The notes below the pieces were generated by a model. It was given only the letters and a program-made list of their open reading frames with translations. It was not told the DNA's origin and ran no database searches. A DNA stretch of 64,000 nucleotides, from NCBI GenBank assembly GCA_947034895.1, contig OX344764.1:6076001-6140000 (forward strand), written 5' to 3'. Source of the stretch: Rhytidiadelphus loreus. Its lineage: Eukaryota > Streptophyta > Bryopsida > Hypnales > Hylocomiaceae. This document shows, piece by piece, positions 1,995 to 58,990 of this stretch (its first letter is position 1; each line of letters starts with the position of its first letter). The translations under genes were made by a program, and so were the position numbers.

Positions 1995-4366
1995 ATGGCG
2001 TCAATAGTAATACCTCCGGATGCAACCCTGGAGGCTTACGTTCACTGTTGCTCGGCGTCCCATGTTGAAGAGCACTTGACACGCACACCTAGGATTGCCA
2101 GGAAGCGGCTCCGAACGCATGGACACATCGCCGTCGCCCGCTCCATGGAGTTCAACAAGGACCCTCTCAGCGTCATGGCTGTGTTGCTGAAGCATCCCCA
2201 AATCCAAGTGAACTTGCCTAAATTCGGTGGTGAAGAAGGGAACACCCTCATGCACTTGGCAGTGTCGATGCACGATGAAGACAAGAACGAGAAGAACCGC
2301 CAGGCCTTACTGTTACTGATTATGAAACGGCCTGACTTGGATCCCAACGTGGGGAATAGCAAAGGAGACACACCACTGCACGACGCTGTGACAGCTTCAT
2401 CTGCACCCTGTGTAGACATCCTCCTGGATGATTCGCGAGTCAACGTAGCGGCCGTGAATTACAACAAGCAAACCTGTCTCCACGTTGTTTGCGACGCTAG
2501 CTCGAAAGAGACCAGTGTTAACGTTCAAATTGCACAAAAGATCATCAAAAAAGTCCCCCAGATTCTCACAAGGCAAGATCGGTTCGGCAATACGGCACTC
2601 CATTACGCAGCAGCAAGGGGTCTTGAGAACGTTGTGGGTGTTTTTTTGGGTAAGAAGCATGAGCTTTCTGTAAAGAAAAACCACCAAGGCAATCTCCCAA
2701 TACACTTAGCAGTGAAAAATGGTCACCATGGAGTCGTAGAAAAAATGTTGGATCTCGTTGACGTGGCTGTCGTCGTCAACATCAAAGACCAGGACGGATT
2801 TGGGTTAATGCAACACGCAGTGCGAAGTGGGTGCCAAGAAATTCTCCAACTTTGCATCCAGCGTCTCCCGAGACCTACCTTCGACCTCTACATGAACCTT
2901 CTAGCTGTGGCCCCTAACAAGGACATCGCCGACATCCTATTCCAAAGTTTGAACGTCGACGAAACCGTGAAGAATTCGAAGCGCAAGGAGGACTATCTAG
3001 CGAATCTCTTGCACTTTGCAGTGTCAAAGGTGAATGAAACTCTAGTCATGCTTATTGTGAAGTGGTATCCCAAGCAAGCCGTGGTCGCCTTTAACGAAGC
3101 CCAGGAGACGGGAAACGAAACCATTCAGGCATTGCTGAGGGACCACCCTGAAGTGCAACGGGACTTGGAGACAAAGCACAAGGCGCTCGCTGTCTACGTG
3201 ACGGCGGCGAATGCGATTCTGGTGGTGTCGGTTTTGATAATAGCGTTGACCTTTGGGCATTGTTTAACGTCGGTCGAAGTGGCGCAACATCGGAAGGACA
3301 TCAGTGAACTGAAGGAGTTCGGAGGGCCACCTGAGGTCATGAAGGTTCATGGGATCGATTTTGTTCTTTTGCCGAGGTGGGCGTTCTTCCAGGCCATGGT
3401 GGCCACCATTCTGGCTGCGTTCGCCTCGCTGCCGTTCTCGTTCCCCTTCTTCTTCCATGAGGCCGTAGATGACATGAAGGTACGGATTGCGGCGCTCAAG
3501 CTTCTTTGTTCTACATGACTTGAATTGGTCCATTTCAGTCCACGCTAGCTGCCTGAAACACAGATATGATGTACACTTGTCCTAGTTATTACTTATTAGA
3601 GCTTGCTTTAGATGAATGTCACGATATGGCGCGCCAAGACTTGGGATATTAAGAAACGCACGTTCTGAAACTCTGAAATGTGTCCGAGAATGGTGTCAAA
3701 GTATAACCACCAGTTTAACGAAATATTGACGTTGCAGAGTTCTAAAAAACTAATATTTATAAGACTGGTGTAGCTAGGTTTGCCTGTTTGAGTTTCCCGA
3801 AGGATAATAGGAATTATAGCTAGAGCCAAATGAATTTTATGAGGTCTTCCCATTTGCATAATTCTACGAAGACATGATCAGTTCTGTTTTCAAAACTATA
3901 GCTTTGGTTCTTTTGTATGTACCCCAAGCATTTACCTTTGCGCAACTACCTTCATTTTGGACAGTTTTTTTCTTACATGTATGTGTGTGACTGACAAACT
4001 TGAATAGCCAGATGTATATTGAAGTATCTAATCGTCCCTAGCCTGGCTGTCGATCTGCTGCAGGTGAAGAGCTTGCTGTTTACGACCCGGGTGCTGATCG
4101 TGTCAGCTTCCTACTTTCTGATGTTGTCCCTCGAGGCGCTGTTCTTCAGCTTCGTGTGCTCGCAGTTCATCGCCCCATACATCGACTACAAGTGCGCTCT
4201 TGCGTGCGAAGTAGCCCTGAGCGTGTTCTTCCTTTGCGCCTCGCTGTTCTTGGGCTTCAACTTCTACCATTACTGGAGGGATAGAAAGAAAGGTGACCAA
4301 CAAGCGGCCATCAAGTTCATGGAGATGTTCGTGCTCAACATAATTAATAAGCTTTTCGCACGATGA
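1995..4366 (+). CDS. Ankyrin-repeat four-helix membrane protein (ACD6/PGG type), gene A
   Basis: Two coding exons, 1995-3479 and 4064-4366, flank a 584-bp intron (AAG|GTACGG to CTGCAG|GTG) in phase 0, giving 595 residues. Residues about 70-390 hold ankyrin repeats, seen as EGNTLMHLAV, KGDTPLHDAV, NKQTCLHVVC, FGNTALHYAA and QGNLPIHLAV. Four hydrophobic helices follow: about 405-425 and 463-490 from exon 1, and about 503-528 and 540-562 from exon 2. Ankyrin repeats followed by a four-helix PGG-like module are the layout of plant ACD6/ITN1-type proteins of the plasma membrane or ER, which act in defence or stress signalling. That role is family knowledge, not shown here. A further upstream in-frame ATG at 1407 is possible through an extra intron. 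Genes C and D and pseudogene B are paralogues. Confidence 0.85.
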
Positions 4367-5899: not shown

Positions 5900-6560
5900 T
5901 TACTATTTGTGTGATGCACTCGGGGTTTATTAGACTGTAGAATTGAAGTCCTTAACTCGACCATATTTGCCTAAATGTATCATTACATGTGTTCTGGCTG
6001 CTGTGGAGGGTTGTGAGTTCCCAACTCGAAACCCACCTAAAATCTGCCGAAATTTGCCGTTCCTCACTTGCATTGACCTAGCCGAGAGAGACTGCCAGGT
6101 CAATTTTTTCGGGGAAAAAAAAAAAAAAAAAAATCTAACTTTGTTTCTCATTTTAAGGACTTAAAAATTTATTTTTTTATTTTTTTTATTTTTTGAAAAA
6201 GAAAATCTGACACCGGAGTTCGAGAAGACCGGGGGGAATGGAGCTAGGAACAGGCCCGAAACGACCCTCCAGCCCCCCCCCCAATCTCATCTAATGATAT
6301 AGTGACCCAACCTTGGAATTTGTGGAGATAGTGTAACTATGCACATCCCATGTCCTATTGGGTCATTGTAAGAAACACCTATCCTATTTTCTGTCACAAA
6401 TTGAGTGATGTTAAATCTCATCAGTGTTTGTGTTTTCTCTGACAATTTTTCATTTTTTTTCATAGTATTGTTTCAATACTTGCAAGTACTCAATAGTACT
6501 TGCAATGGTACTTTTAGCTATTGATTTTTCCAATCAATGGTTGAGATTGTTTCACTATGT
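5900..6560. other. Intergenic, low complexity
   Basis: Contains a poly-A run at about 6116-6133, a T-rich tract at 6170-6200 and a short C-run near 6272. No gene or recognisable element is supported. Confidence 0.5.
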
Positions 6561-6563
6561 AGT

Positions 6564-7493
6564 CACTAGAAGAAAAACACGTCCGGCACAACCAACTACT
6601 ATGCAACTAGTGCCCTATGCAACTGTCATGCAACTAGTTTCCTCTCTATTTGCACCAAATCTAATGTAGTTGTTTTGTGTCATTGTTTTACAACATTCAT
6701 TCATTGTTTTAGTTGCAAAGTAGTCATTCTGTAGTTGCAAAAAAAGACTAGGAAACAACTAGTGTTCTATGCAACTATTATGCAATTGTAAAATGACCAT
6801 AGTTGTTTCCTAGTTGTACGCTAGTTGTTTCTTAGTTGCTTTCAAAGTTCATTCTCATTCGTGTTATATCAATTGACCCATATCAATTGTAAAGAGTACC
6901 ATTAGATTGAACATATAAGACTTGTAAGTTGTTATAGTCTTATGTAATGAATTCTTTTGATAGAATTCTAAGATTTCTATAATTTGTGAGTTTCTACAAT
7001 TTGTAGATTTTGTATATAAGAATTTAAAAAATAATTAAAATTCAAGAAATTTTATAATCTAGGAAATTGAATTTTGAAATCTAGGAAGAAGGTAGATCTG
7101 AAATTTTGAAATCTAGGAAGAGGGTAGATTTGAAATTTTGAAATCTAGAAAAAGGTAGATTTGAAATTCAAAAATCTAAGAAAAAGGTAGTTCTGAAATT
7201 CTAAAATCTAGAAAGGAGGTAGATCTGAAAATTTGAAATCTACAAATCATTGAGATTTATATTTTAAAATTTACAAATCTACAAGTTGCAAGCAAGTTGC
7301 AAACAAGTTGCACACAAGGATGAAGTTCTTTGTATGGTGTCGGATGACAAAAGACCTTACAACTAGACTGCAACTAATGCGACTTGTCCACTGCAACTAC
7401 GGACTCTGCATTGTCACCTAGTTGCAAACGTCCTATGCAACTACAAAATGAGTTGCATACTGTAGTTGCAAAACCCCTCATTTTCTTCTAGTG
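6564..7493. mobile_element. Non-autonomous CACTA-like element, 930 bp
   Basis: The left end CACTAGAAGAAAA at 6564 and right end TTTTCTTCTAGTG ending at 7493 are inverted repeats. They are flanked by the 3-bp duplication AGT (6561-6563 and 7494-7496). CACTA termini with a 3-bp target duplication define the CACTA/En-Spm superfamily. The subterminal regions are packed with GCAACTA/TAGTTGC hexamer-type repeats, as expected for transposase binding. The middle (about 7080-7260) has about 60-bp imperfect direct repeats of the type GAAATCTAGGAAGAAGGTAG. No transposase is encoded. Confidence 0.88.
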
Positions 7494-7669
7494 AGTACTC
7501 CTAGTATTGTAGGGCTAAAATGCAGATTTTGGCAAAAAAAAATGAGGGTGTTTCTTGCAACTGTTGCAAGGACCCCAATGTCTTGTGACCAATAAATCTT
7601 TTTTTAGTTTCAAATAGATAAGGGGTAAGTAATCATCAGGATCCATGTTTTAGCCATTTACATATATGA

Positions 7670-9215
7670 TCAATTGATGTGGGAATCTGCAAATCACAAG
7701 TCCTTGCTAATCACGTACAGAAGGTAGCAAGTGCTGATAACACTTGGAGGTTCATCGCTTATAAGGTAGAACTACCTATCACCCCCATGATTTGCAATCT
7801 GACTATTTTGGGGTTAATTTCAAGAAGGGCACATATTTTTCAGAGGTGTGTTTTTGTTTCACGGATCAAACCCAAGTGGAATTATAATTTTCCCATTAAA
7901 ATTGTAATTTCTGTGAATTTTTGAAGTGGTCAGTCCTGAAATTACAAAACCATTTATAGAGTGGGGTCAAAATTGTCCCATAAACAACCCATTACCGCCT
8001 AATCAAGTACTAGATATTCTCTATTAATGGAGTGACACATAACCCTTGTTGTCATAAAAATCCCTGATTCTGTCATAGAATTCTCTAATTTTGTCATAAA
8101 AGGAAGGGAATTGGAGGGGATTTTAGGCAGAATTGGGGCCAAAGTTGATGACGGAATTGGGCTGGTCTACTTGATGGAATTGGACTGCAGAACGGTAATG
8201 GGTGTTTTGACCTTAATCATGTTGAAATCTTTATAAGTATTGCGAAACTGCGGGTTAGGATATTTAGTGAATCGAATTACAAAAAAGACTGTACGTTCAC
8301 GTGTTGCCCTAATCCTCTGTTTTTGTTCTCTACGCACATATATATTTCGATTCTGTGAAATTTTTAGTATGGGATTGCACTGTCTCATCTCTGGAGGCGG
8401 AAATGTGCAGCCAGGATGTTATTCGTGGTGAGGTTGGGAAGGGGCGCTGGAATCCACGCACTACAAACGGATGAGGAAAGGCAGAGATTTCGTTTGAAAT
8501 TAATCAGGAACTGATTAGCCTCCACGAAGCCCTCCTGGAGGAAGAGCTGTTGTTATTGCGAGGCACTGAATTCACGAAGGTCAGTACTGCAGCTCTCCAC
8601 TCTGCTTGAAGGAGCTAATTGGTAATCAGGATGTTCCTGTGATTTCTGTATTTAACAGATGCATTGTCTGTTAGCAAGTCACAAAGGACATTAACAAGGA
8701 CTAACGATCATAAGATTCGTGTCGACAGCCGCTGATTCGCTTCAAATGTGGAGAAAATTCGCAGGTTCGGATTCTTCTTTCTTCAATCGTGATTTCGTGA
8801 GTTTTGCACCACCCACTAATTCTGAAATTGGCAAGCAGTATATGAATTTTATTTCTGAAAATTCTTGAAAGAGCTAGATACCTGCCACGGAACTGAAATT
8901 TCTGAATGCATTCAATTCCTTGTTCACGTGCATGAAAATGTTGTCCGGCCCGCTATGATTGTTCACTTCACAGGAGCCTTGGTATTGAAGTAACCTTCAG
9001 TTGGGTTTTGTAGAGGTTTTGGATATACGTACTATGCTGAGACTTGCTGAGCGAGATTTGAAGGAACGTTGGCCGGGTGCTTGTTTTCCAGGGATCCTGT
9101 GCAAAATTCCAAACGCCTTAATTGCAAACTGTCTATTAATTGGGAACAAGTAAGTTCTGCCCAAAACGTATCCATGACTGTGATGATTAATCTCACTCAG
9201 TTGTGTAAATAGACA
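7670..9215 (-). pseudogene. Decayed copy of the unrecognised gene at 52 kb, inverted
   Basis: This stretch is the reverse complement of material found at about 12150-13165 and 51790-52820. The recognisable remains, readable on the plus strand here, include an exon after TTTTTAG at about 8370 whose counterpart reads GGIVQDVIRGKIG at 52.5 kb, the GAGGAAGAGCTGTTGTTATTGCG stretch near 8540 (written here as landmark only), a donor AAG|GTCAGT near 8580 and a later exon near 8660-8790. Insertions and deletions break the frame, so it is non-coding. Homology resumes at about 10003-10060, so about 790 bp were inserted at about 9214. Confidence 0.6.
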
Positions 9216-23210: not shown

Positions 23211-24661
23211 TCACTCTCAGATAGGTCAAAGTAGGCCAATACTTTAAAGGAATGAAATATGAGGATGAAGACTTCATCTAAGCTCAGTCCGTTAGCAGTG
23301 ATGTAGTCTGTTAGCACTAGGGACTCACGATGTCTTTCAAGTTGCTGAGTAAGTTACTGAGTCCTTAATGCCATTATGTTTGGTTTGGTTGATATTAGCT
23401 TGATTTGTGGCGAAATGTTGGAATGGATGGGTCACTGAGATGATTGGAAAAGTGAGAGTGCATACTCTATGCTTGGGTTGGATTCAATAAAAAAATAATT
23501 TGAAAAATAATTAAATTTGGCATGCAATTTTCAGAAATTTATTACATGGCATAATTGAATGTGTAGAAAATATCAATAAGAATAATTTGAATCCTAAATA
23601 ATCCCGATGAAAAAAATTATTAGAAAAATATTTAACAAGGTGATATACTTAACCCCTAAATGTCCAAGGCATATTTTGAGCTTCTCGGAATTTGCTCTAA
23701 ATTAAACTAAATGCCAACATTTTGATAAGTTGTATCAATTTTTTTGAATTGTAACCATACAAATTCAAACTAGATATGTTAAAGATCTCACAGGAAAAGA
23801 AAATACAACAATATCACTTATGGAGTGAAAGATTATAATGTTTGACCATGAGGGTGTTAAAACTGCAAAAGTGATGTCAAGTCTTTCAATCCTCTTTTCA
23901 CAAGTCAAATCTAAAAAGTTGGTGACCCAAAACATATGAGTTTAAAGGGCCTAACATGTATAACCCCAATCGATTTATGGCTTCTTAAAATCTACTCTAT
24001 AATTTTCTTAAATGAATCTTGAATGTGATTTTTTCTCCAAGATCTAGTGTATTTGAGGCTCATTTCCACATTAGAAGAAAATTCGGGTCTCTGGATGGCC
24101 GGTACTTTGGGCTTGAAAAATAATTTTTTGCTTTTTAGAAAATGGTCAATTCCAACATCATGGGTACTTGGCGCTTGTTGCCATCAAACCTGCACGCCAA
24201 TGAGCTGTGGACGGTACAGGTCGAGTTGTCACTGAAGCACTCAAGTGGCGCCTTGTTGTCAACAGCCGTGCACCAGGACTCTGTACAAACATTTGCCATG
24301 TTGGCAACTCAACACTTGGGGCAATGAGTTTGGCACATAGATTAATATAGTTCGGTGACTATTTTAATGTTGACTGCGAGTACCAAATTGTGGATTATAA
24401 TCTTTTAATCCACGATTTGGAATTCTGATTTGGAAGCCACTATTTCCAATTAGTGTACTCAACATGTACAATCCAGTTGACGAGCGTGTGAATTGGGGGA
24501 TGTGGGGAATGTCAACGTGGAGATGCTCGCAAGTTCTCAATTGTTGGAATTGCTTCCCGCCAAATGAGCTGGCCTCATTGCCGTTGCCAACAGGCTCATT
24601 GGCATCCCTCAACTGGTTTTGGGGTGGCTTTGGCACACGATTTGAGAGATTTCGGTTTAGG

Positions 24662-27600
24662 ATGGCACTTCAGGACATTACCAATGTTGGAAAGGGTAGT
24701 TCGTATACAGCAGCTGTTATATTGGATAGTAAATTCGCCCCTATTGTGAGGAAAGGGGTTCGAATTGATCAGCAAGCCTCAAAAGCAGAGTTTCCAGCGT
24801 TGAGAGATTCTGGAGCCACCAACATTGATTTATGGTTGGATGGCAATTTGTACCCAACAGATCCTGTCACAGGGAAGCCACCACCGTTTCAAACAATCAA
24901 GAGTTGCTTAGAATTTGTGTGTCACGGTGACTCTGGACTCCTAGGATATTCTAGAAACCTTGTTAGCACCTGTGACTCAATAAAAGGCTTGGAAAGGCAA
25001 TTACAGGAGACACAAGCTGATGCAATTCGGAAGAGGGAAGCCTTGCAAAATTCCATTGCGTTACTAACGCAGGATCTGGACGTTGCCAACAGTAGCTGGG
25101 CACAACGTTCAGAGGAACTTGTTGCAAGAAGTAAAGAGGAGATTGACACTTTGAAGAGCGGTTTAGACTTCTTTAGGGCTCGATGTGTAGCAGTCGAAGA
25201 AGAGTTGCACAGGAATGATGACCAACACAACAACTTGCAGTTGGCGAACGAACAAGGACGACAAGGTGTGCATCAGAAGGTCTTGCAGTTGGAGCATGAA
25301 CTCATGGAAGCAAGAAAGTCCATAGTGAAATTCCAAAGGAAAATGGAAAGAATGGTCAGGACTCCAGCAGGACCACAACTAAGACCATCGAAGGGCCTCG
25401 TTGAATTAGCGAAGAGTGGTGGCGCGTCGAGGGCTCGTATAGCCAAAATTCGAAGTTTGTTGCAACCGTAGGTAGTTCAAGCTATACACGCTGGCAACAG
25501 GACGTCTAACAGAAGGAAACGTCTGTGTGGCGACAAGGATACCCAAGATGAGACCGGGCAGGCGATTGGACTATTGATGTCAAAGGGAGAGACGCTGGCG
25601 TTGATATCAAGTTCGCAACATAGTCATGCTGCAACCAGCATGACGAACCACTACCTTGAGAAAATTGGGACGGAGTTGGGAACAGAAGCAATACTAGCAG
25701 CGTGCGATATGACTGGAGTGTCACAGAAAGGATATGGTGAGATCTACAAGACGATCAAAGGGCGAGTGCAGCTCGTTGACAAACGCTTGAAGCCAACATT
25801 CTTGCCAAACCCGCACAAGGTTTGAAGTTATTATTCCCATTCCATGAATTTTGGCTATGCATTGTTGGAAACGAGTTGGGCTTACATTCAAAGTAGAGCG
25901 TATTGCTATGCCTTGTTGGAAACGATGGAAAATTTCAATATAGGACATACTGGAGGGTTCTTGCATTAGCCTAGTCGATCGGAGCATTGGAAAACAGAAT
26001 TATAGCAGGGGCCCCATAAACGCTGCTAGAGGGAGGGTGGTAACGTGTTTGCAGTCACAAAACCTGGTTTAGGGTTCAGGGTTCTGGGCGATTTACATAA
26101 CTTCAATAAGGAAAATCTTGTTTCCAACGGCATGTTAGTGGTGGGTTTAGGCTTACGTGGTGTTCTCACAATATGGACTATGTTGAACAGGTCAGTTTGT
26201 TGCGAACAGAACTCAATTCAAAGTTGACGGATCTTGTTGGCAACTATTACCATATTGACAGTACGCTGGAGTTGGTGGTGCAACCTTCAGTTACCACTGG
26301 AAAAGGAAGAAAGAAGAAATCAGACATATCAAGGGTGGTTCTAACGCCCAAGAATTCTTTGTTTGTTGACATCGAAGTGGTGCAGAGGACTATGGTGAAG
26401 CTATACCAATTCACGACCGAAGGTGAATATCCTTCTTTTCAAAACATTCCTGTTCAAACGGTACTTGTTTCCAACGTGATTTCTTATTGACTTCTGTACA
26501 TCAAGCGGTGTAGGGTGCTCTGACGTTGGAAACTGAACCTGCATGTCCAGAAGTTGGAAACAAGCCTTTAATTTTCGTCTTGAAGATGGACGAAGCAGAG
26601 ATTGTACATGGGAGAAAATTCGAAAGGGTGAGTTTGACGCTCATGAATCGTGCATTAGACACCAGCATACAAAAAACAGATGATAGATATTTTTCAGTCC
26701 AATCGGAAACCGAAATCTGGCCTATCGCATGCTTTGAGGTGGCCAAGGAGTCGTATGAAGTTCTCCACTGGGTGTTCCAACAAACTCAGTTCCCTACACT
26801 CATCAAAGCGCAAGATGAGGGTCAACTGTTAAGAGTTGAGGGTGTTGGAGACTTCAAAGTAGAGTGGCATTTGTCAGCTGACATGAAGACAATTAAGTGT
26901 TTGTATGGGCTGAAGCATGGAGCCAACGCGATACACTCATGCATTTACTGTAACCAACAGCGGACAAAACCAGTGCTGGGAACAGCCGCGTCTGCTGCTA
27001 CAGAGGCTAGGCGGAGAAAACATACATGGCATGGAGGTTTATTTGCTGGCAACGTGCAATGTAAACCGCTCGCCACTGACAGAGAATCACGGTGGAAGCC
27101 TATTCTACCCATTCCACTTGAGAGGGTACATATTTGTACCTTACATGCGTTAACTCGAATGATGGAGAAAATTCTTCACCTCCATTTCATGTTCATTTGG
27201 AACATGAAGAATGAGGAGCGTCAGCAACAAGCCATAGAGAATATGGAGAAGACTCTGTCAACAGCTGGTCTTCACGGTGGAAACGTCCGCATCATGAAGG
27301 ACCCAGTACTCAGTGGCGCTTCCAACAGTGTCCCCATCAAACCCTCCCTCAGTGGTGTGACTGCAACTAGGATGTTCCAACCATCGACTTGGTCAGGGCA
27401 AGATCGAGTATGGAAGGATGTCTTGCGCTCAGAAAATAACACTCTTCAACAAGGGAGGCAATATCTAGACAGGGTGGAAATGTGGCAGGCGTTGGAAACA
27501 GTGTTCCCTTATTTGGTTGGCCTTTCCTTGGATCAAGAGCAAAGGGAGACTTTCAAAGGTAAAATTGAGAGATGGGGGAGCCTCTACTTGAAATGCTTCG

Positions 27601-28206
27601 GGGAAGACCATGTGACTCATTATATGGTGAGTACCGTCTATTGCCAACGTACATCTGCAGTTCAAAGTCAATGTTTGCCGTCATGTGGGAAGTTCATTTG
27701 ACAAGCTTAGGGGGTCCAGGGTGTGATGGTATGTGAACTTGACACATTTCATAGCATCTCGTTTCACGCAGTGCAACATTTTTACACGTACTTCTACTAA
27801 TTCCTTGAATGCTGTGATTTGCTAGCATAATCTGGTGCGCCATGGTCCTTGGTATGTGGAAACGTATGGAAGTCTCGCTGTTTGGAACAACCAGGGCATG
27901 GAAAAATCTCATCACGCAGCTAAGGCTGCTAATCAGCATCACACTCAACATGGAGGCACTAAAGAGAGAACAAGCTCCATTGTTCAGCAATACCAACATT
28001 GGTACAGAAACATACAACACAGGTTTGCCAAGCAGGAACGACTGAAGGACATTGCCAACGCGACATCGATGGAAGATGATGCCCAAAGAACGGCAGCGAC
28101 AACAAGAAAGAGGACGGCCTACAACACGTCAAATGCAATGGATGCAGCTAGAATCTGGAGGGAAGGTAGATCACGAGTAGGCCGTGCTTGGGTGGCGACG
28201 TCTTGA
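24662..28206 (+). CDS. Transposase-like protein with predicted RNase H-fold catalytic core; one in-frame stop
   Basis: Four exons: 24662-25819, 26191-26460, 26514-27626 and 27826-28206, all phase 0, about 973 codons. An in-frame TAG interrupts exon 1 at 25469-25471, after which the same frame stays open to the donor. The reading frame also extends upstream to an ATG at 24464. Residues about 110-230 are coiled coil. Exon 3 holds a candidate catalytic Asp in VLKMDEAEI (26589), a second in LSADMKTIK (26880) with a nearby CxxC (CIYC), and LHALTRMMEKI. Exon 4 holds WNNQGMEKSHH with a candidate Glu (27901). This D...D...E arrangement and the GADxK...CIxC and QGxEK motifs recall DDE transposase-like proteins of animals and fungi. 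That is pattern recognition, not a search. As the largest gene of the TTAA element it is the presumed transposase. Confidence 0.65.
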
Positions 28207-28249
28207 AATGGAGGGTGTAGCAAACAGCGGCACCATTTCCATAGCAACA

Positions 28250-29150
28250 GAGTTTAGGCCGTTGGCAACGACGGTGGCTGAGGTTTATTTAACGAGGCCA
28301 CATACCAATGTACTTAGTGGCGCTTCCATGTGTAGAAGTTAGAAACAAGCCTTTGAATTTACACCATAGTGTTTTTTTACTACAATATCCACTCATGGAA
28401 GGATTCTGCAAGTTTTTTTAGGTATCATTCACTTTTTCGGATAAAATCACTATAAACCACCAATTTTCACAGCAAGCGGAAAAATTTCCACATCAGAAAT
28501 GTAAAGTTTATACTGCCCAAATCTTGTTGCCAACAAATTGTCAAATGTACCCATTTTGATCCCACAGACCTAGGCAATTTTAATGCTTAAGAGGGACCCT
28601 AAACCGAAAACCCTAAACCAAGATTCTAACCCCTAAACCCACGACCCTAGAAATTTGTGATCTCCTGTTGGCACCGTGCTTATAAAATAAAATGACTGGG
28701 TTCCTAGAGAAGTACCAGCTTCTCTTGCTGGGGTCCATGATGTGCCAACAGGAGACACTATGAGGTGATGTGCCCACTCCACAAAATTAGGCCATGATGG
28801 AAACAAGTTGCCATCAGTGGATGAGGGAATCATAAGATACTGACCATAATGTAACGTCCCAAACACTCAATTAGGGCCTAAAGCGACATCTAATCATTAA
28901 GCTCATTGGCTCGTTGGCAACAGGAGGCGGCTGTGCCATCATGGAGCACGTTGGGAGTTACTGGCGTCATAAGCAAGGCACTTGCCCCATAAACCCCCAG
29001 CCTCAGGCACAAGTGAAACTTCAAAGTACTTCTACGTTGCCATTGCTCTCTCTCTCTCTCTCTCTTGTGCGAGTTTCGCGCTGTTGGTTACACATTCCAA
29101 TTGCACTTCTTCTCTCCTGTTGTCTTTGCAGCAGGTCAATTGTAGGTCTC
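28250..29150. other. Spacer between transposase and RING genes
   Basis: Three copies of the 9-bp motif (28261, 28526, 28913) and a CCCTAAACC-rich tract at about 28590-28645 lie here. A (CT)n tract at 29047-29066 precedes an acceptor-like TTTGCAG near 29131, suggesting that the 5' leader of the next gene is spliced. About 28308-28355 resembles fragments of transposase exon 3 (GTGGCGCTTCCA and GAAACAAGCCTTT boxes). Confidence 0.5.
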
Positions 29151-29153
29151 ACC

Positions 29154-31372
29154 ATGAGCGCGTCAAGCAGGAAAGCTCGTTCGAAAAGCCTTGTCAAAGG
29201 CAAAGCTCTCATGGCGGCAGTGTTGGCAGAGTCTGCTCCTCCCCAGAAGCACCAAGTGCTTCTCCCCACCGATCCGGGATGGGGAACGTGGGAGGTTCCA
29301 GCGGATTTAAGCGGGCTTCCACCAGTGTTGCAGAAGAGGCTGGTGACGTTGGCACCGTGCTTGTTGGGGAGGCACAAGGCGGTGTATGACGCAGAGTTCT
29401 TCCACAGGGTTTACGGATTGTGCAAAGAAGGGATCATGCCCAAGGAGGTGACGGAGGCTATGGTTCCCTCCTACATGTACGAGTCCATCTGGGTTCCTGG
29501 CGAGGGGTTGAACAGGACACGGTACTGCTTGGACAAGTGCAGAGACCTCAATTCGCGGGATCTATACCTTCGGATGTACATGAGGGTTTATGGCGATGCA
29601 CCTGACAACAAAGCCTTTAGCCAAACATTCTTGCGCGCGTGTGTGTACTTCTACAAGGAGGGGCGCAGGAACAAGGTGAATTGGGCAGCGGCTGCGGCCC
29701 AATTGACTGAAGAACGACTCGCTCATCCGGGCCTGAATCCCCTGAAATTGGGCCCTCCAGCATTGAGGGAGCAGATGTGGTCCATTCTGAAGGAGTTCCG
29801 GCTGTATTTCCAGAAGGAAGTTGGACTTCGGCCCGCTGGAAGCGAAGTTGGGCGCGAGGAGCAGGAGCAGCGAGAAGTTGAGGCCGTTGGCAACACTGAC
29901 GGCGTTGACAATGTTGGGAACAAGGTGGCCGCGCTGGAGAAGCAGGTGAAAGAGAAGTCGGAAGACGTCAAGGGCAAATCCAAGTGCATTTCCCGATTGC
30001 GAGGTACCTTAAAGGGACTGGAAGGCACAATCTTCACGTTGGAAGCAGAAGACGAACGCCTCAACTCTGTGAAGGATTGCTTGCGGAGGCGGAGTAGAGA
30101 GCTTGCGGCAGCAGGGAACCTGTATGACAAGGCAACGGTGGACAAGGAGCAGCGGGAGGTGTGCAAGGACATCACTGCCAACAACGACAAGTTGGAGGAA
30201 GTTCAAGATTCGGTCCTTGAGAAGTCCAAATGCCTTAAGGAACTGGAGGAAGCCTTCAGGTTGAGCGAGGAAGGACTGGGGGATCTCCAGAAGCAGTTGG
30301 CAACAGAGAGAGCAAGCCAGTATTCCATCAAGCCGAAGAAGTTGGCTGACGACAAGGCGTTGGAAACGGGTGTCAAGCCAGTTCTTGAAGTGGATTCACC
30401 CTGCGGCTTGTGCTCTCAACTGTTTGTTTCCAACGGTGCTGTGCCCTTCTCATGTGGTTGCCTGTTTCACCCATGGTGTTTGTGGTCTGAACTTCTTTCG
30501 GGGAGTCGGGTGTGTCCAAGGTGCAAGAAAGGAGGTGACCGTCAGTGGCTGGAAGCATGGGGCTTTGACGCGTTGGAAACACAGATCCCGACTTGTGTTG
30601 GCGAGAATGAGGTTCCGCGTGAGGGGGCTTCTTATGGTGTCAGCATTCGGAAGAGGGAAGCCTCTGTGATCCCTGAAGGTGAAATAGCTCCGAAGTTGTT
30701 AAAGACACCGCTAGGTGCATCACCCTTGGCTGGTAAGGCCCAGCATTCAGTGCTCTCTCCTGTTGCTCCTAGAGAATACGTTTGGGCACTTCCTTGTTTT
30801 GCATTCAGGCGAAAAGGATCTCCTTATACAGAAGCGGTTGACGCAGCCGTGCGAGACTTAGCCTTTCACAGTACGTTTCTGGTAGCGTAATGTACTATAT
30901 GCACTTAGTTGGTAATTGTCACTCAAATTTATAACACAACATCTGTAGTTCAAACCTTTGCTCTTCTCTTTTGTATTGTTGGAATTCTGTCTTTTCTTTA
31001 CAATGTTGTGGTAATATTCATGTGGGATGTGCTCTGTTTCCAACAGCAAATGAAGCAGTAGCTGCAAGCAGAGGGGAGACGAAGCCCGAAAGAAGACCAC
31101 CTTTGCCGCTCGAGGACAACAACAAAAGCAAAGCTCCCATGCCTTCAGATTCGGGGGCTGCTGCCAACGCGACCCCGTTGGCACCGACAGATGGGGCGGA
31201 GGCGGAGTTGGCAACGTCGCGTGAACCTCCCGCAGTGGGCCCGCCTGCCGCACCAGTGCACGTCGATCTTTCATCTGAGGGTGGATCTGCTGGCAGGCCT
31301 CAGGCAGCGGGTTCGTCATCCATAGATTCGGCGGATGCAGAAGTTTTGGATGCGCTTGTAGACCAAATTTGA
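29154..31372 (+). CDS. Coiled-coil protein with C-terminal RING-type finger, transposon-encoded
   Basis: Exon 1 is 29154-30870 and exon 2 is 31047-31372, joined CACA|GTACGT to AACAG|CA in phase 1, giving 680 residues. I chose the ATG at 29154 (ACCATGAGC), because upstream codons in frame lack an ATG close to the leader. Residues about 40-240 are a globular region I do not recognise. Residues about 255-395 form a charged coiled coil. A RING-type finger lies at 417-457, with CGLC, then SCGCLFHPWC and CPRC, matching C-x2-C...C-x-C-x3-H-x2-C...C-x2-C spacing. The tail is low-complexity and acidic. RING fingers usually give E3 ubiquitin ligase activity; its role in the element is unknown. The exon-2 acceptor overlaps a copy of the 9-bp motif (31036-31044). 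The frame is intact, suggesting selection or recent insertion. Confidence 0.75.
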
Positions 31373-31794
31373 TTTTTTGTCATGTTTAGAAGCGCCTTCT
31401 GTACATCAAGCTAGTGTAGGCAGTAGTAGACGTTGGAAACAGTGGATGTTTAGCAGGCCTACACTTGAAATGGCACTGATGGGTTTTTGAGGACAGTCAT
31501 AGGAAGCAGAAACTTCTTTCCATCATTTTTGTTCACCTGCCTTTCACGAATATGAAAATTCTGCATTTCCGCATATTTTCATTGTGATTTTGCATTCATT
31601 AGTTCTTCAACTCTCTCGCAAGTTTTCGGTACCCATCTCTGTTGTCAACATGTTTTGTATGAATGCAGTTCCCTTCTGTGATTTGCCCTTGTTTACACAC
31701 GCCATATGACTTAGATGGACGTGTACAAAAGAAAGCATTGTTGGAACAGGAAGTCACGAGTCATGATAGAGTTAGAGGAAATGAGAGTCATCTT

Positions 31795-32035
31795 GTTTCC
31801 AACGCAGTCATTGTGAAGTTGTTGCCTCATTTTGTCAAATGTACAATCACCGTGATGTAATGGAACTCCTCTTGTTTCCAACACAGTCACAAACACCATA
31901 AACCGAGTGGCAACCAAGTCTGAAACACGTCCCAAACATGAGGAGTTCTTTTGTTTCCAACACAGTCATTTCTCATCATGAACCGAGTGGCAACCAAGTC
32001 TGAAACACGTCCCAAACACGAAGGTAACTATCAAC
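31795..32035. repeat. 79-bp tandem repeat, about 2.5-3 units, carrying the 9-bp motif
   Basis: The box CTTGTTTCCAAC(G/A)CAGTCA recurs at 31795, 31874 and 31953, exactly 79 bp apart. The second and third units also share CGAGTGGCAACCAAGTCTG. It lies between the convergent genes of the TTAA element and looks like local amplification of motif-bearing DNA. Confidence 0.88.
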
Positions 32036-32244
32036 GTCCAATTTTTTTTTTGATTATCAAAATTCAGCCTTACAGTGTTTCCTATGACGGTCGTTGCTTA
32101 CACATAAGTCCTTATCTAACTCTATATCATCCTAAACCGACTTGTTTCCAACGTGACGTTGAAAGAGGCACCTGTAGGAATGTAAGTGCTAAAATGTCTC
32201 AAAACTGACATTGATAGTTCTCTAAACTAACCATGCTCTACCAC

Positions 32245-34250
32245 TTAGTTGGTAATTGCCACTATCTCCAACGTCCACGGAGGAAGGACATCTGCTACCC
32301 TGTTGGCACCCTCCTGCCTCCGGTTTACAAGGATGTCTGCAAACCCTTGCTGACGGACAGAGAAGCGGAAGTCTTCTGGAACCACACCTCCCAAGGTGAT
32401 ATCCACCTCTCTGCGAATGTGTGCCAACGGCCATGTTCGACCCACCTGGAACCTTGCCACCGTCACACCTTCAAACAAACATGGAAGGACCACCATGTCC
32501 TCCTCCTGCACTTCGTCTATCTGTTGCCAACTAACACCATCTGGCGCCAGACGCTCTCGGCCGTACTTGAAATTTGTGTACAACGTTGCTCGCCCAACAT
32601 GGTATCTACAGCACACCCGACACGTCTAAGAAAGGTTGTTTTCAACGTTCGCAACAATTCACAAGCACCCTACACCCTAAAACACTCTCAATGGCACATG
32701 CAACAGTCTGTTGGCAACAAAAGTCTCCTTACCTGAAGGCTACAGTGTCCATTGAGATTGTGCACCTGACAATGTCCTTGCCGAAGACTACTTTCTGATG
32801 CCAACCTGCGTCCATGAGGCTCGTGAACAACTCGTCGGAGGGGCTGTTGACAACGTACAGGACGGCAGTGCGTCTCATCCTCTCCTCCTCACACGCAAAA
32901 AGATCTACAAATACATGCAAGGGCATAAACCACTGGAGGTGGCCCATGCGGCTTCCAGTGGTGGCCTTGGTGACAGCTTGGAAATCGGCCCGAAGCTTGA
33001 ACCGAAACGCTTCACTGGTGTGCATGTCGGGGAGAGGCCATTCGGGATCAGTGAAAGGTGGCAACGACAGTGGCTCAACTGATCCATATAGAAGCCCTGG
33101 TGTAGGTGGCACATAGACAAGGTTAGAAAAAAATATCCCATTCTCCAGAAGCTCATTGTAGGACCTCCCATTCCGAGTGGCTTCACCAATTTCGCTGTGC
33201 ACAACAACGATGACTCCAAGGATAGAAAGTGGGTCCACCCAGTCTTCAAAAAAGGATTGGTACAGAACTGTTTTCAACAGACAATACCACAAACCAAATT
33301 AGCAAAGCAGTGTAAAGCCCCAGCCACGTTTACTTTGATGGCCATCAAACTTTCAAGAACAACATGGCATCAAAGGTGGAAACAAAGCGCCATCTATTCT
33401 CACAATTGCATGGAACCCGATCGTGGCGAATCTCTGGATCTAAGAGCACTTGATGCCGGTGGTAAGCATGTCTAACCAACACGGACTCCAATTCCGTCTT
33501 GTTGGAAACGGTCTTGCGCCCATCAAACTTGAACCGGAAGTCCATGATTTGAGCCTTGTAAGATCCCCTCATGCTCTCACCTCCATGCCGACGAGCCTCT
33601 CGAGCCCAAGTTCCATTTCTACCAGGGTTCAACCTCACCCACGACAACCTCTCGTATCTCGTTGGAATCCACTCTCCCTGGTCATTGTGTGTGTTGTGGA
33701 GCGTCACTGCTGCCACCTCCGAACGCGGTCTACGATTCTCCATTCCTGATGACGTTGCCAACGCACAATTGATCACCTAACACTTGTTGGAAACGAGTTG
33801 CCAGTGATCACACAATTTGGGCAGCACTCGACAACACTGGCATCCACACAATTCATGGAACTACAATGCATGGAACTGTGACATTGAACGAGTGACGCGT
33901 TTGGACCCATTCTGAAATTGGAGCTCAGCCAATTCCGTGCCAAGTTTGAAATTCCCTCCAAGTTGTCAAACACATCGCATCATTGACAACGATGCGCGGC
34001 TCCACTACCGGTCCGCATGCGGGACTAGTCCCTGCGTTTGGTACGCCCAATTGGAAATTCGTTTTATAACCCTACACACAGGACAGGGGACAACGGTACG
34101 CCAATAAAATATTGTTTCCAACGCGTCACTCCCATTGGTAGCAACGGGTGCTAAATCCCTCGTCATCACCTTATACTCCACGTTGGCAACGTGCAAGGTG
34201 GCATTTTCAGAAATTTCCAAGCACGAAAATTGCGTTGCCAACTTAGGCAT
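32245..34250 (-). CDS. Multi-exon transposon gene, minus strand, with possible beta-grasp domain
   Basis: Open segments in order: 34250 to about 34080 (starting MPKLATQFSC), about 33975-33780, 33776-33351 (acceptor TTAG|GTG, donor AAA|GTTTGA), about 33278-32733 (donor CAG|GTAAGG) and 32605-32245 (acceptor TGTAG|ATACC, phase matching the preceding donor). The last exon contains RFQVGRTWPLAHIRREVD, then PEDFRFSV, RRQEG and LPPWTLEIV, a pattern like a ubiquitin-like beta-grasp domain. The other parts I do not recognise. The splice between 33351 and 33278 is unresolved in phase: the only AG there leaves a frame mismatch, so either an unseen site is used or this copy carries a frameshift. Convergent to the RING gene and starting about 250 bp inside the right end. 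Confidence 0.5.
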
Positions 34251-34505
34251 CTGGAGACCCGAATTTTCTTCTAATGAGAGCTCTCAACACTATGGGAAGT
34301 CCAGATTGCAATGGGTATCTTTGCACAAAATCTTAAATAGAAAATCACTATCATTTATTTTCAAGACCGAATTTTCGATGCTAAAACTAGACTTAAAAAA
34401 AATCTCAAAATATAAAATACTAAAAATACCAACTTGGTTAGGTTTTATTTAACTTCAAAGTTTTGCAAACACCGCATTTTGGTGCCTCGGGCATTTAGGG
34501 GTTAA

Positions 34506-43769: not shown

Positions 43770-46231
43770 ATGGCGATACTAATACCTCCGGATGCTACCC
43801 TGGAGGCTTACGTTCACTGTTGCTCGGCGTCCCAAGTTCAAGAGCTCTTGACACGGACACCCAGGGAGCGGCTCCGAACGCATGGACATATCTCCGTCGC
43901 GCGGTCCATGGAGGCCAACAAGGACCCTCTCGGTGTCATGGGCGTGTTGCTGAAAGAGCCAGAAATCCAAGTGAACTTGCCGGAATTCAGTGGTGAAGAA
44001 GGGAACACCCTCCTACACTTGGCAGTATCGATGCACGACGAAGACAACCAGGAGAACTGCAAGGACTCAGTGTCACTGATTCTACAACGGGATGATGTGG
44101 ATCCCAACGTGGGGAATCGAAGACTAGACACTCCGCTGCACTTCGCCTCGAGAGCTACCTCGACAGTGTGTGTAAACATCCTTCTCTCCGATCCACGATC
44201 CAACGTAGCGATCTTGAATAAGAACAAACAAACTTGTTTACACGTTGCGTGCGAAGCTAGCTCGACGAAGACATGCGATCAAATTGCACGCAAGATCATC
44301 GATTCGGCGAGATTGACAGTTAAAAGCTTCCCCCAGTTTCTCAGAAAGCAAGATCAGTTCGGCAATACGGGACTCCATTACGCAGCAGCAAGGGGTCTTG
44401 AGAACGTTGTGGATGCTTTCTCCGAGGCCGAGAGTTTGGGTAACAAGCATGAGCTTGCTGTGAAGCAAAACCACCACGGCAACCTCGCAATCCACTTGGC
44501 AGCGAAAAACGGTCACCATGGAGTCGTGGAAAGAATGTTGGTTCTTGTCGACGACAGTCACGTCGACGACGTCGTCCTCAACTTCAAAGACCAGGACGGA
44601 TTTGGGTTACTGCATCATGCAGTGCTAAGTGGGTGCATAAAAATCCTCCAACTTTGCATCGATCGTCTCTCGAAACCCACCCGACCTACCTTAAGTCTCG
44701 ACCTCTACGTGGAGCTTCTAGCTGTGGCCCGTCACAGGGACGTCGCCGACTCCTTACTAAAAAGTTTAGAGAAAATCGTGAAGGGCAAGGAGGGCAAGGA
44801 GGACGACTATCTAACGAATCTCTTGCACTTTGCAGTGACGTCAGAAAAGGGTGAAACTCTAGTCGGGCTCATTGTGAAGTGGTATCCCAAGCAAGCCGTG
44901 GTCGCCATGCACGAAGCCCTGGAGAAGAAAAATAAAACCATTCAGGCAATGCTGAGGGACCACCCTGAAGTGCAGCTTGATTTCGTCAAGCTGCACCGGA
45001 AGTACACTTACTATGTGACGGCAGCGAATGCGATTCTGGTGGTGTCGGTTTTGATAATAACGTTGACCTTTGGCCATTGTTTGACGTCGGTCGAAGCGGC
45101 GCAATATCGGAAGGACATCATTGACCTGAAGGAGTTCGGAGGGCCGCCTGGGATCAAGAAAGTTCATTGGATCGATTTTTTTCTTTTGCCGAGGTGGGCG
45201 TTCGTGCAGACCATGGTGGCCACCATTCTAGCTGCGTTCGCCGCGCTGCCATTCTCGTTCGCCTCGTTCTTCCATGAGGCCGTAGATGACACGCAGGTAC
45301 GGCCGGGATTACGACGCTCAAACTTCTTTGTCCTACGTGACTTGAATTGGTCCGTTTCAGGCCGCGCTAGCTGCCTTAAACAGCGATCTATACCTGTCTT
45401 AGTTATAGCTTATAAGAGCTTGATTTATATGAATGTCACAATTTTTGGCTTGATTCAGGCACTAAGACATGTGATACATATGAACATGCATAAAGGTCTA
45501 AAAATTAGGACAAATATATTAAGAACGCACGTTCAGAAACTCTGATTCTCTGAAAGGTGTTAATTAGAGAATGTTGTCAAAGTATAACCACCAATTTAAC
45601 GAAACTGACGTTGCAGAGTTCTCAACAAACTAATATAAGATTGGTGTCGCTAGGTTTGACTGTTTGACTTTCCCGATGGATACCAGGAATAGCTAGAGCC
45701 AAATGAATTTGATGAGTTTTTCCCATCTGGATAATTCTACGAATACATGACGATCGTACGTTTAGCTTTGTTATTCTGATGATGTACCCGAACATGCATT
45801 TAATTACCTTAGCTTAAGTAACTTCATTAACTTCATTTTAGACAGTTTTTTTTCTTACATGTGTGTGACTGACAAACTTGATGTATATTGAAGTATCTAA
45901 TCGTCCCCTACCTGGCTGTCTGCAGGTGAAGCAGTTGCTGTGTAGGACCCGGGTGCTGATCGTGTCAGCGTCGTACTTTCTGATGTTGTCCCTCGAGGCG
46001 CTGTTCTTCAGCTTCGTGTGCTCGCAGTTCATCGCCCCATACATCGACTACAAGTGCGCCCTTGCGTGTGAAATAGCCCTGAGCGTGTTCTTGCTTTTCA
46101 CGGCGCTGTTCTTGGGCTTCAACTTCGTCCGTTACTGGAGGACGAGAAAGGACGAGAACACAAGGGATCATGAAGATGCAGGAGAACTGGAGATGCTCAC
46201 GGTTTTGTTGCACAGTGAGAACAGTGTGTGA
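43770..46231 (+). CDS. Ankyrin-repeat four-helix membrane protein, gene C
   Basis: Exons 43770-45296 and 45926-46231 are joined in phase 0 across a 629-bp intron (ACGCAG|GTACGG to CTGCAG|GTG), giving 610 residues. Ankyrin units visible are EGNTLLHLAV, RLDTPLHFAS, NKQTCLHVAC, FGNTGLHYAA, HGNLAIHLAA and DGFGLLHHAV. Hydrophobic helices follow (AANAILVVSVLIITLTF, WAFVQTMVATILAAFAAL, TRVLIVSASYFLMLSLEALF and the LFLGFNFVRYW region). The frame stays open through the intron for another 246 nt after the donor, which is incidental: the next exon matches A and D exactly. The full-length open frame and canonical splice sites suggest a working gene. It is closest to pseudogene B. Membrane anchoring with cytosolic ankyrin repeats is inferred from the family. 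Confidence 0.87.
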
Positions 46232-56239: not shown

Positions 56240-58990
56240 TCATTGTTCTGTAGTTATCGTGCGCATCTCCAGTTCTCCTGCATCTTCATGATCCCTTGTT
56301 GGTCCCCTTCCGTTCTCGTCCTTTCTCGTCCTCCAGTAACGGACGAAGTTGAAGACCAAGAACAGCGTGGCGACAAGCAAGAACACGTTCAGGGCCACTT
56401 CACACGCGCGAGCGCACTTGTAGTTGATGTAAGGGGCGATGTACTGCGAGCACACGAAGCTGAAGACCAGCGCCTCGATCGACAACATCAGGAAATACGA
56501 TGCCGACACGATCAGCACCCGGGTCCTATACAGCAACCGCTTCACCTGGATCGGATCGGATGCACGGGGGGGGGGTCATGCAGCCAAACACATATCCAAA
56601 AAAGTTAGTTGTCAGTTTAGCTAAACTGAAGTTCGATCGTTACGCCAAAATAACAGTGGATTCGGGTACATCAAAATTCAAAGACAAAAAAGAAAAGCAT
56701 TAACATCTTTGAGCGAAGACGACACTGATTTATCGTCATGTAGTCGTTGAATGAATGATTGATGTAAATGGCCAGGGAAAATTTCACGAAATTCATTTGG
56801 CTGTATTCCTGTTATCCGGACATGCATCGGGAACCTCAAACCTAGCTATATTAGTTAACTTGTAGAACTCTTAAACGACAACCTAGCTCTTTGAATTGGT
56901 GATGTTTCAATACTTTGGCACCTCCGGCCCAGAACGTGCGCTCAGATCTGAAGTAGCAGATATAAATCCTTACCTGTCCTAAATTTTAGACATACATATC
57001 ACAATTTCTGACGCCCGAATTGTAACAATTGAACGAAATTTGACCATCGATCTGTCCAGTATATTTAACTCCGGTTGAATGCCACTAATTTATTTTACTT
57101 GACATAATTTAAAGGTAGAACAAGTGTGCTAGCTGCTCTAGTCCATGAAAACACGATTCTCAAGAACGTCATATACTCATATTTTCAATTTCGTTACATT
57201 GACTCGACCGTATAATTGTGACATACATCGACATCCAGGCTCTAATAACTAGTAAAGGCAGGTGTCGTTTTATGTTTCAGGCTGCACGGTCTAAAAGCGG
57301 CCAAAGTTGAACGTTGAGTTAATACCGCCACTTTAACGAAATTAAATCTTGTTTCCAAGAAGAATGAAGAGGTTTGTGGGAAAAAGAAAAAGAGTAAAAG
57401 AATAAGAGGTTCGAGCTAGCGACGAATATATATACATAATCCCGTAAGTACCTGCGTGTCGTCCACGGCCTCATGGAAAAAGAAGGCGAACGAGAACGGC
57501 AACGCGGCGAACGCAGCCAGAATGGTGGCCACAATGGCCTGGAAGAACGCCCACCTCGGCAAAAGAAGAAAATCGATAAAATGAATCTCTCTGCTCCCAG
57601 GCCCCGTCCCAGGCCCCGTCCCAGGCGCAGGCGCAGGCACTCCATTATTCTGCAGGTCATGGATGTCCTTCCGACGTTGCGCCACTTCGAGCGACGTCAA
57701 ACAATGGACAAAGGTGACCGTTACTATCAAAACCGCTACCACGAGAATCGCACCCGCCGCCGACACGTAGTAAGTGTACGCCTTGTGCAGTTTCACAAAC
57801 TCTCGCTGCACTTCAGGGTTGTCCCTCAGCACTGTCTGAATGGTTTCGTTTCGCGTCTCCAGGGCTTCGTGCATGGCGATCACGGCTTGCTTGGGATACC
57901 ACTTCACAATAAGCATGACTAGAGTTTCATGCTCTTTTGACATTGCAAAGTGCAAGAGATTCGCTAGATAGTCATCCTCCTTGCGCTTCAAATTCTTCAA
58001 GAATTCGTTGTGATTTTGGAATAAGAAGTCGGCGATGTCCTTGTGGCGGGCCACAGCGAGAAGCTCCACGTAGAGGTCGAAGGTAGATCTGGTTGTCTTC
58101 GGGAGACGACGGATGCAAAGTTCGAGAATTTCCTGTCGCCCACTTCGCACTGCGTGATGCAGTAACCCAAATCCGTCCTCGTCTTTGATGTTGAAGACGA
58201 CGTCGTCGACGACATTCAGCATTCGTTCCACGACTCCATGGTGACCGTTTTTCGCTGCTAAGTGGATTGCGAGGTTGCCGTGGTGGTTTCGCTTCGCAGC
58301 AAGTACATGCTTGTTACCCAAACTCTCGGCCTCGAAAATCGAATCCACAACGTTCTCAAGACCCCTTGCTGCTGCGTAATGCAGTCCCGTATTGCCGAAC
58401 TGATCTTGCTTTCTGAGAAACTGGGGGAAGCTATTGACTCTCGATCTCGCCGAATCAATGATCTTGCGTGCAATTTGATCACTGGTCTTCGTCGAGCTAG
58501 CTTCGCAAGCAACGTGGAGAGAGGTTTGCTTGTCATAATTCACGGCCGCTACGTTGACTCGAGGATCATCCAGGAGGATGTCTACACAGGGTACAGATGA
58601 CGCTCTCGCGGCGGAGTGCAGTGGAGTGTCTCCTTTGCTATTCTCCACATTGGGATCCAAATCAGGCCGTTTCAAAATTAGTAACAGTGAGCCCTTGCGG
58701 TTCTCCTCCTTCTCGTCTTCATCGTGCATCGACACCGCCGAGTGTAGGAGGGTGTTGCCTTCTTCACCGCCGAATTCAGGCAAGTTCACTTGGATATCGG
58801 GCTGCTCCAGCAACACGCGCACGACACCGAGAGAGTCCTTGTTGAACTCCATGGCGCGCGCGACGGCGATGTGTCCATGCGTTCGGAGCTGGTCCCTGTG
58901 TGTGTGTGTCAAATGCTCTTGAACTTGTAACGCCGTGCAACAGTGCGTTACGCACTGCAGGGGCTCATCTGAATGTAGTACTGACACCAT
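56240..58990 (-). CDS. Ankyrin-repeat four-helix membrane protein, gene D
   Basis: Minus-strand exons 58990-57452 and 56545-56240 are joined in phase 0 across a 906-bp intron (ACGCAG|GTACTT to ATCCAG|GTG), giving 614 residues. The N-terminus (MVSVLHSDEP) differs from A and C. Ankyrin units include EGNTLLHSAV, KGDTPLHSAA, DKQTSLHVAC, FGNTGLHYAA, HGNLAIHLAA and DGFGLLHHAV. Helices include AAGAILVVAVLIVTVTF, WAFFQAIVATILAAFAAL, TRVLIVSASYFLMLSIEALVF and LFLVFNFVRYW. The loop after the first helix has expanded to a Pro/Gly-rich run (PAPGTGPGTGPG) built from 12-bp direct repeats at about 57598-57640. The intron contains a MITE relic at 57262-57345. The orphan exon at 5616-5891 is closest to this gene. 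Open frame and clean splice sites suggest it is functional. Confidence 0.87.
57262..57345. repeat. MITE relic inside the intron of gene D
   Basis: Contains CAGGCTGCACGGTCTAAAAG and CCGCCACTTTAACGAAATT, the interior box and right end of the dispersed MITE family. Confidence 0.6.

Follow-up and report, generated by a model that had tools for sequence, protein, structure and literature searches.

The window analysed here, a 64-kb stretch of Rhytidiadelphus loreus DNA, contains a transposon with three genes and 34 copies of a nine-base motif, GTTGGMAAC. The features are as follows:

24069..34276, + strand: full transposon, 10,208 bp in length (11 copies end identically and diverge beyond those points; empty paralogous target sites)
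24069..24091, + strand: left terminal inverted repeat (TIR), CATTAGAAGAAAATTCGGGTCTC
34254..34276, - strand: right terminal inverted repeat
24662..25822, + strand: gene 1, N-terminal coding part with a coiled-coil-like stretch (open frame, homologue P0065; inferred model)
26191..26463, + strand: gene 1, second coding piece (inferred splice sites)
26517..27626, + strand: gene 1, transposase core, with D22, D119 and C139xxC142 of the ORF at 26526-27701
27826..28206, + strand: gene 1, last coding piece, with H(4)H and, 20 residues on, E (GMEKSHH); splice site inferred from sequence
29154..30890, + strand: gene 2, with a conserved N-terminal helical region and RING-like cysteines (4 homologues)
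31043..31372, + strand: probable last exon of gene 2 (open frame only)
32248..33743, - strand: gene 3, three coding pieces at 33743-33348, 33289-32732 and 32616-32248 (inferred splicing)
24300..34242, both strands: 34 copies of GTTGGMAAC
Motif starts, + strand: 24300, 25864, 25915, 26236, 26525, 26553, 27491, 28261, 28913, 29886, 30296, 30359, 30572, 31207, 31432, 32710, 33501, 33786, 34182
Motif starts, - strand (low coordinate): 24583, 25082, 26120, 26467, 28526, 30426, 31036, 31795, 31874, 31953, 32144, 32523, 33754, 34114, 34234
31775..31968: 36-nt direct repeat in three units at 79-bp spacing (100, 81 and 67% to the reference), one motif in each

Elsewhere in the window are three related ankyrin-repeat genes (1995-3518, 43770-45545 and 57416-58990), and Pfam confirmed ankyrin repeats in the two that were scanned (1995-3518 and 43770-45545).

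The ends of the element follow from a comparison of the window copy and 10 further copies: what they share extends from CATTAGAAGAAAATTCGGGTC to the reverse complement of that sequence, and the ends read CATTAG..CTAATG, i.e., 5'-CA..TG-3', in all 11 copies. Five empty paralogues were read across the junction, and all five continue without a gap and with no mismatch closer than some 29 bases; the insertion therefore neither created a target-site duplication nor deleted any sequence. Shared flank bases, two or more of them adjacent, occur in none of the 11 copies. An earlier, sequence-only reading had put the outermost motifs 650 bp inside the left end and 260 bp inside the right end, distances that imply ends at an inverted repeat (TTAACCCC) at 23649/34505. 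Those ends were misplaced, and the corrected distances are 231 bp and 34 bp. The inner ten bases of that repeat are absent from all 10 other copies (exact search), and it belongs to a host repeat, since the joined flanks (a 479-base query) match 40 genome places along almost their whole length (40 of 42 rows). The host repeat surrounds the element (23649-24068 and 34277-34505), has the ends TTAACCCCTAAATG..CATTTAGGGGTTAA and is ~650 bp long when empty.

TIR pairs delimit 24 copies, 22 of which are full length (10.1-10.2 kb) and two shorter (4.4 and 5.3 kb). Eleven copies lie ~0.13% from their own consensus (left 9 kb), with three columns of shared variants, the mark of a recent burst. The TIR CATTAGAAGAGAATTCGGGCC occurs at 255 genome places at up to 2 mismatches. 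Inverted TIR pairs (CATTAGAAGAGATTTCGGGCC) that are 271-303 bp apart (G000 C2:71807880-71808150, C4:42145168-42145448 and C4:67423048-67423350) are possible MITEs.

Gene 1 encodes the transposase, and its reading frame in the window copy is interrupted by a premature stop (25469-25471) that is absent from the 10 other copies examined. D119, C139 and C142 are kept in 47-48 of 49 transposase homologues. H(4)H followed by E in the next exon, scanned for with a window-derived pattern, was present in 9 of 13 sequences, with no match in L028, L051, L052 and L055. Between its second D and its E the transposase has the C(2)C and H(3-4)H of the CMCT clade (CACTA/Mirage/Chapaev/Transib/RAG1), and an RNase H fold of RAG1/Transib type is predicted for it. 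A profile comparison with solved RAG1 or Transib sequences gave no match, nor did a plasmid collection searched with one homologue.

Gene 2 has long predicted helices, coiled-coil-like, and its RING-like Pfam matches are weak and below the cut-off. Its structure model is also weak (pLDDT 61), and the hits of the predicted fold were mostly coiled coils, all with E of 0.001 or more. The middle piece of gene 3 has 25 homologues. Across the gene 2 and gene 3 pieces and their homologues, no Pfam family scored above its cut-off.

An exact count of GTTGGMAAC on both strands bore out the earlier claim of 34 copies at 24300-34242 (19 of the GTTGGAAAC type and 15 of the GTTGGCAAC type, complements included) and none in the remainder of the window. 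The expected number in the element is 0.35 from its own dinucleotides and ~0.23 from genome-wide density (arithmetic); the excess, put earlier at about 200-fold, is thus about 100- to 150-fold. The whole-genome count that the sequence-only reading had called for (407 Mb) gave 9185 occurrences against 7901 of the reversed control, a modest excess that is partly the transposon family itself, and the density in the element is ~148 times that of the genome (arithmetic).

The motifs are spread along the element, with 3, 2, 5, 1, 3, 1, 6, 5, 2 and 6 in ten equal bins (p 0.34), a mean spacing of 301 bp and a largest gap of 973 bp. No helical phasing or even spacing was seen in the 33 gaps. The first 500 bp contain one motif and the last 500 bp four (p 0.08 for the latter), so neither end is significantly enriched in motifs. 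The base before the motif's G is a pyrimidine (Y) in 29 of 34 copies (p = 0.002 for this preference, relative to the element's own GTT context), and the base after its C is a purine (R) in 31 of 34; judging from these bases, the outer positions of the motif are CpG or its deamination products.

Coding sequence does tolerate the motif, as had been claimed: 13 of the 34 sites fall in 6297 inferred coding bases and the other 21 in 3911 non-coding bases, a density ~2.6 times higher in the latter. Synonymous codon shuffles gave a mean of 1.1 motifs and a maximum of 6, and none of 5000 reached the observed 13, so the choice of codons has yielded to the word. A codon-order control (8 of 10 coding pieces) did not account for the motif either. 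The exon motifs thus exceed what the encoded proteins require. At two coding motif sites, six transposase residues that align well were compared with homologues: N12, G11 and T325 are rare (0-10%), V10, L323 and E324 are found in 29-69%, and the mean over columns is 50%.

Other copies of the element are just as rich in the motif, with 34-36 in corresponding places in all 10 other copies examined at full length, a count which the sequence-only reading had also proposed. Its expectation that positions are conserved between copies holds (trivially) for these near-identical copies and mostly fails between sister lineages. Seven copies with 83-87% identical transposase have 10, 6, 5, 3, 2, 2 and 2 GTTGGMAAC in 4-kb pieces; 10.6-kb stretches contain 16 in the L024+L056 copy (14 in one orientation) and only 6 in one L025-type copy. 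When motif site columns were aligned over five lineages (young, L024, L027, L029 and the L025 group), 16 of 24 were private to one lineage and 8 were in more. Where exons can be aligned, a single substitution or a few separate the motif sites from the sister sequences. Persistence of the word, not the position, is the pattern that would be expected of binding-site turnover.

At greater distances, the word itself changes. Two copies of a family with 63% identical transposase have GTTGGMTCC (7 in 10 kb and 6 in 6 kb) along with two and one GTTGGMAAC, respectively, and among the matches listed, a third copy has at least 5 GTTGGMTCCA within 8 kb. The motif word thus differs between sister families (GTTGGMAAC vs GTTGGMTCC), and word and family change together, as in VANDAL/VANC (in the parts of PMC5735166 covered). 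In L051, L052 and L055 (56-58% identical transposase), the stretches examined had no GTTGGMAAC and no other dispersed word; words there were clustered, in tandem or in few copies only. The distant transposase copy in L052 has repeat arrays beside it (6135-6721 and 7641-7801), with TAATYTA-rich sequence and with GGGGAGTCCA units ~32 bp apart.

Substitutions among the 11 copies bear on silencing. C>T/G>A changes amount to 0.43% in CG, 0.64% in CHG and 0.08% in CHH, compared with 0.014% for other changes, and given this excess in CG/CHG, the young copies probably became methylated. C>T rates do not clearly dip around motifs and are similar at a greater distance. Methylation-type changes with no dip near motifs weaken an anti-silencing role for the motif; they do not exclude it, because silencing has been reported for VANDAL copies too. 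Motif bases were not seen to be conserved beyond others (5/2862 vs 118/96047 other bases), a comparison that uses very young, perhaps silenced copies.

Several explanations of the motif can be weighed against these results. Duplication or base composition might have produced it as an unselected by-product: three motifs sit in the 79-bp-spaced repeat (where the L045 copy is without one motif that other copies have), and a few other sites have short similar flanks in common. Most sites have unrelated flanks, though, point changes separate exon sites between lineages, and composition, codon order (in 8 of 10 coding pieces) and synonymous shuffles do not yield the count. The lineage point changes and the shuffles already contradict this explanation, which we consider very improbable. 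Sites for a host transcription factor, of the MYB type for example, might instead have been gathered as promoters or enhancers. The higher density outside inferred coding sequence would suit such sites, but the motifs cross exons over the full element, the word varies between related families in one host, and the host genome has only a modest excess of it, so we regard this explanation as improbable.

A better but still unlikely alternative is that the motif serves excision and synapsis, as a site for the transposase or an accessory factor like the TnpA sites of CACTA, and has spread inward. The transposase resembles a broad clade that includes CACTA, a family known for repeated subterminal motifs, which in CACTA diverge fast and are recognised by a second protein (as described in the parts of PMC2613891 covered). 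The closeness of the last motif to the right end and the four motifs in the last 500 bp leave some room for a role there, and most copies are full length, which recency may also explain. The left end is different, as the nearest motif is 231 bp away and only one lies in the first 500 bp. At one locus with a related TIR at its start, the first 1.2 kb are motif-free, although a different transposase may move that element. A pure transposase mark, one of the options raised by the sequence-only reading, is thus less likely, given the lack of a significant enrichment of motifs at the ends and that motif-free 1.2 kb.

Known systems offer partial models. VANDAL elements have a long target-site duplication, whereas this element has none, nor did Pfam MULE transposase or DUF1985 match its proteins or their homologues. 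In common with VANDAL/VANC, it has three genes and a private motif, nine bases long and with two-way positions, that is dense in the family and rare elsewhere, and its sister families use different motifs. In Arabidopsis, VANDAL21 and VANDAL6 encode VANC anti-silencing proteins, whose motifs are mainly non-coding tandem repeats in one orientation (in the parts of PMC5735166 and PMC10398659 covered); here, 13 of 34 motifs are in inferred exons, both orientations occur, and 31 of 34 lie outside the sole tandem repeat seen. CACTA elements (En/Spm, Tgmt*) also end in CA..TG, encode further proteins besides a transposase of a broadly similar clade (judged by predicted fold and motifs) and carry repeated motifs that are specific to the family and bound by a TNPA-type protein (within the covered parts of PMC2613891). 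Unlike them, the element has motifs beyond subterminal regions, ends in CATTAG rather than CACTA, makes no 3-bp duplication and has no match to the Pfam CACTA (tnp2-type) transposase (window ORFs at E 1, six homologues at E 10).

The wider CMCT clade matches in its 5'-CA..TG-3' ends, in the arrangement D, D, C(2)C, H(4)H, E and in a fold predicted to be RAG1/Transib-like, but its members make 2-5 bp target-site duplications. Spy transposons (PHIS group) are named as eukaryotic DNA transposons without target-site duplications (in a title that PMC12730594 cites), but their transposase groups them with PIF/Harbinger and ISL2EU (PMC4482050, likewise in part). By analogy, VANC would be the closest working model, with CACTA TNPA second (as far as PMC2613891 was covered). 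The covered parts of the literature, including PMC12730594, PMC2613891, PMC10398659 and PMC5735166, describe no such element, which is not proof of absence.

The results support a motif that is private to the family, runs through the whole element and is tolerated in exons. We consider it reasonably probable that the copies are binding sites for an element-encoded protein, VANC-like or TnpA-like; that the motif is bound, by which protein and to what effect are all parts that we infer. Of the options in the sequence-only reading (transposase, anti-silencing factor or another system), a site for an element protein thus stands as the best reading, and the three are not separated. The word should benefit the element, because it recurs in sister lineages at sites that differ, also within exons, and because a host silencing factor should select for its loss. 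A protein bound along the whole element could find its own family within the genome, and binding along 10 kb could act on the whole element rather than its ends. Because the motif is spread over the whole body, an effect on chromatin or transcription is preferred over end synapsis alone. The likeliest effect would be opening or activating silenced copies (VANC-like), with help in mobilising copies (TnpA-like) as a possible further one.

More tentatively, and with doubt about the whole, the element may represent a new lineage near the RAG1/CACTA clade that makes no target-site duplication and carries a self-address in its whole body, with word and reader co-evolving so that every family would activate or mobilise none but its own copies. 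On this view, the outer bases (CpG or TpG) would be a hint that the reader may bind copies which are methylated and silenced. The motif looks like a new form of self-recognition encoded by a TE, and the transposon lineage seems new as well. The RAG1 enzyme clade gave rise to V(D)J recombination, and a transposase with a predicted RAG1 fold that leaves no target-site duplication would bear on how this clade cuts target DNA. Within the literature covered (parts of PMC5735166 and PMC10398659), sequence-specific transposon anti-silencing is documented for the Arabidopsis VANDAL group. If the reading is true, this would be another, unrelated case, with sites in exons, and anti-silencing would have had more than one origin; the co-evolution of word and reader could then be traced over several families in one genome. 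Since the family is recent, this would be testable while its copies are young.
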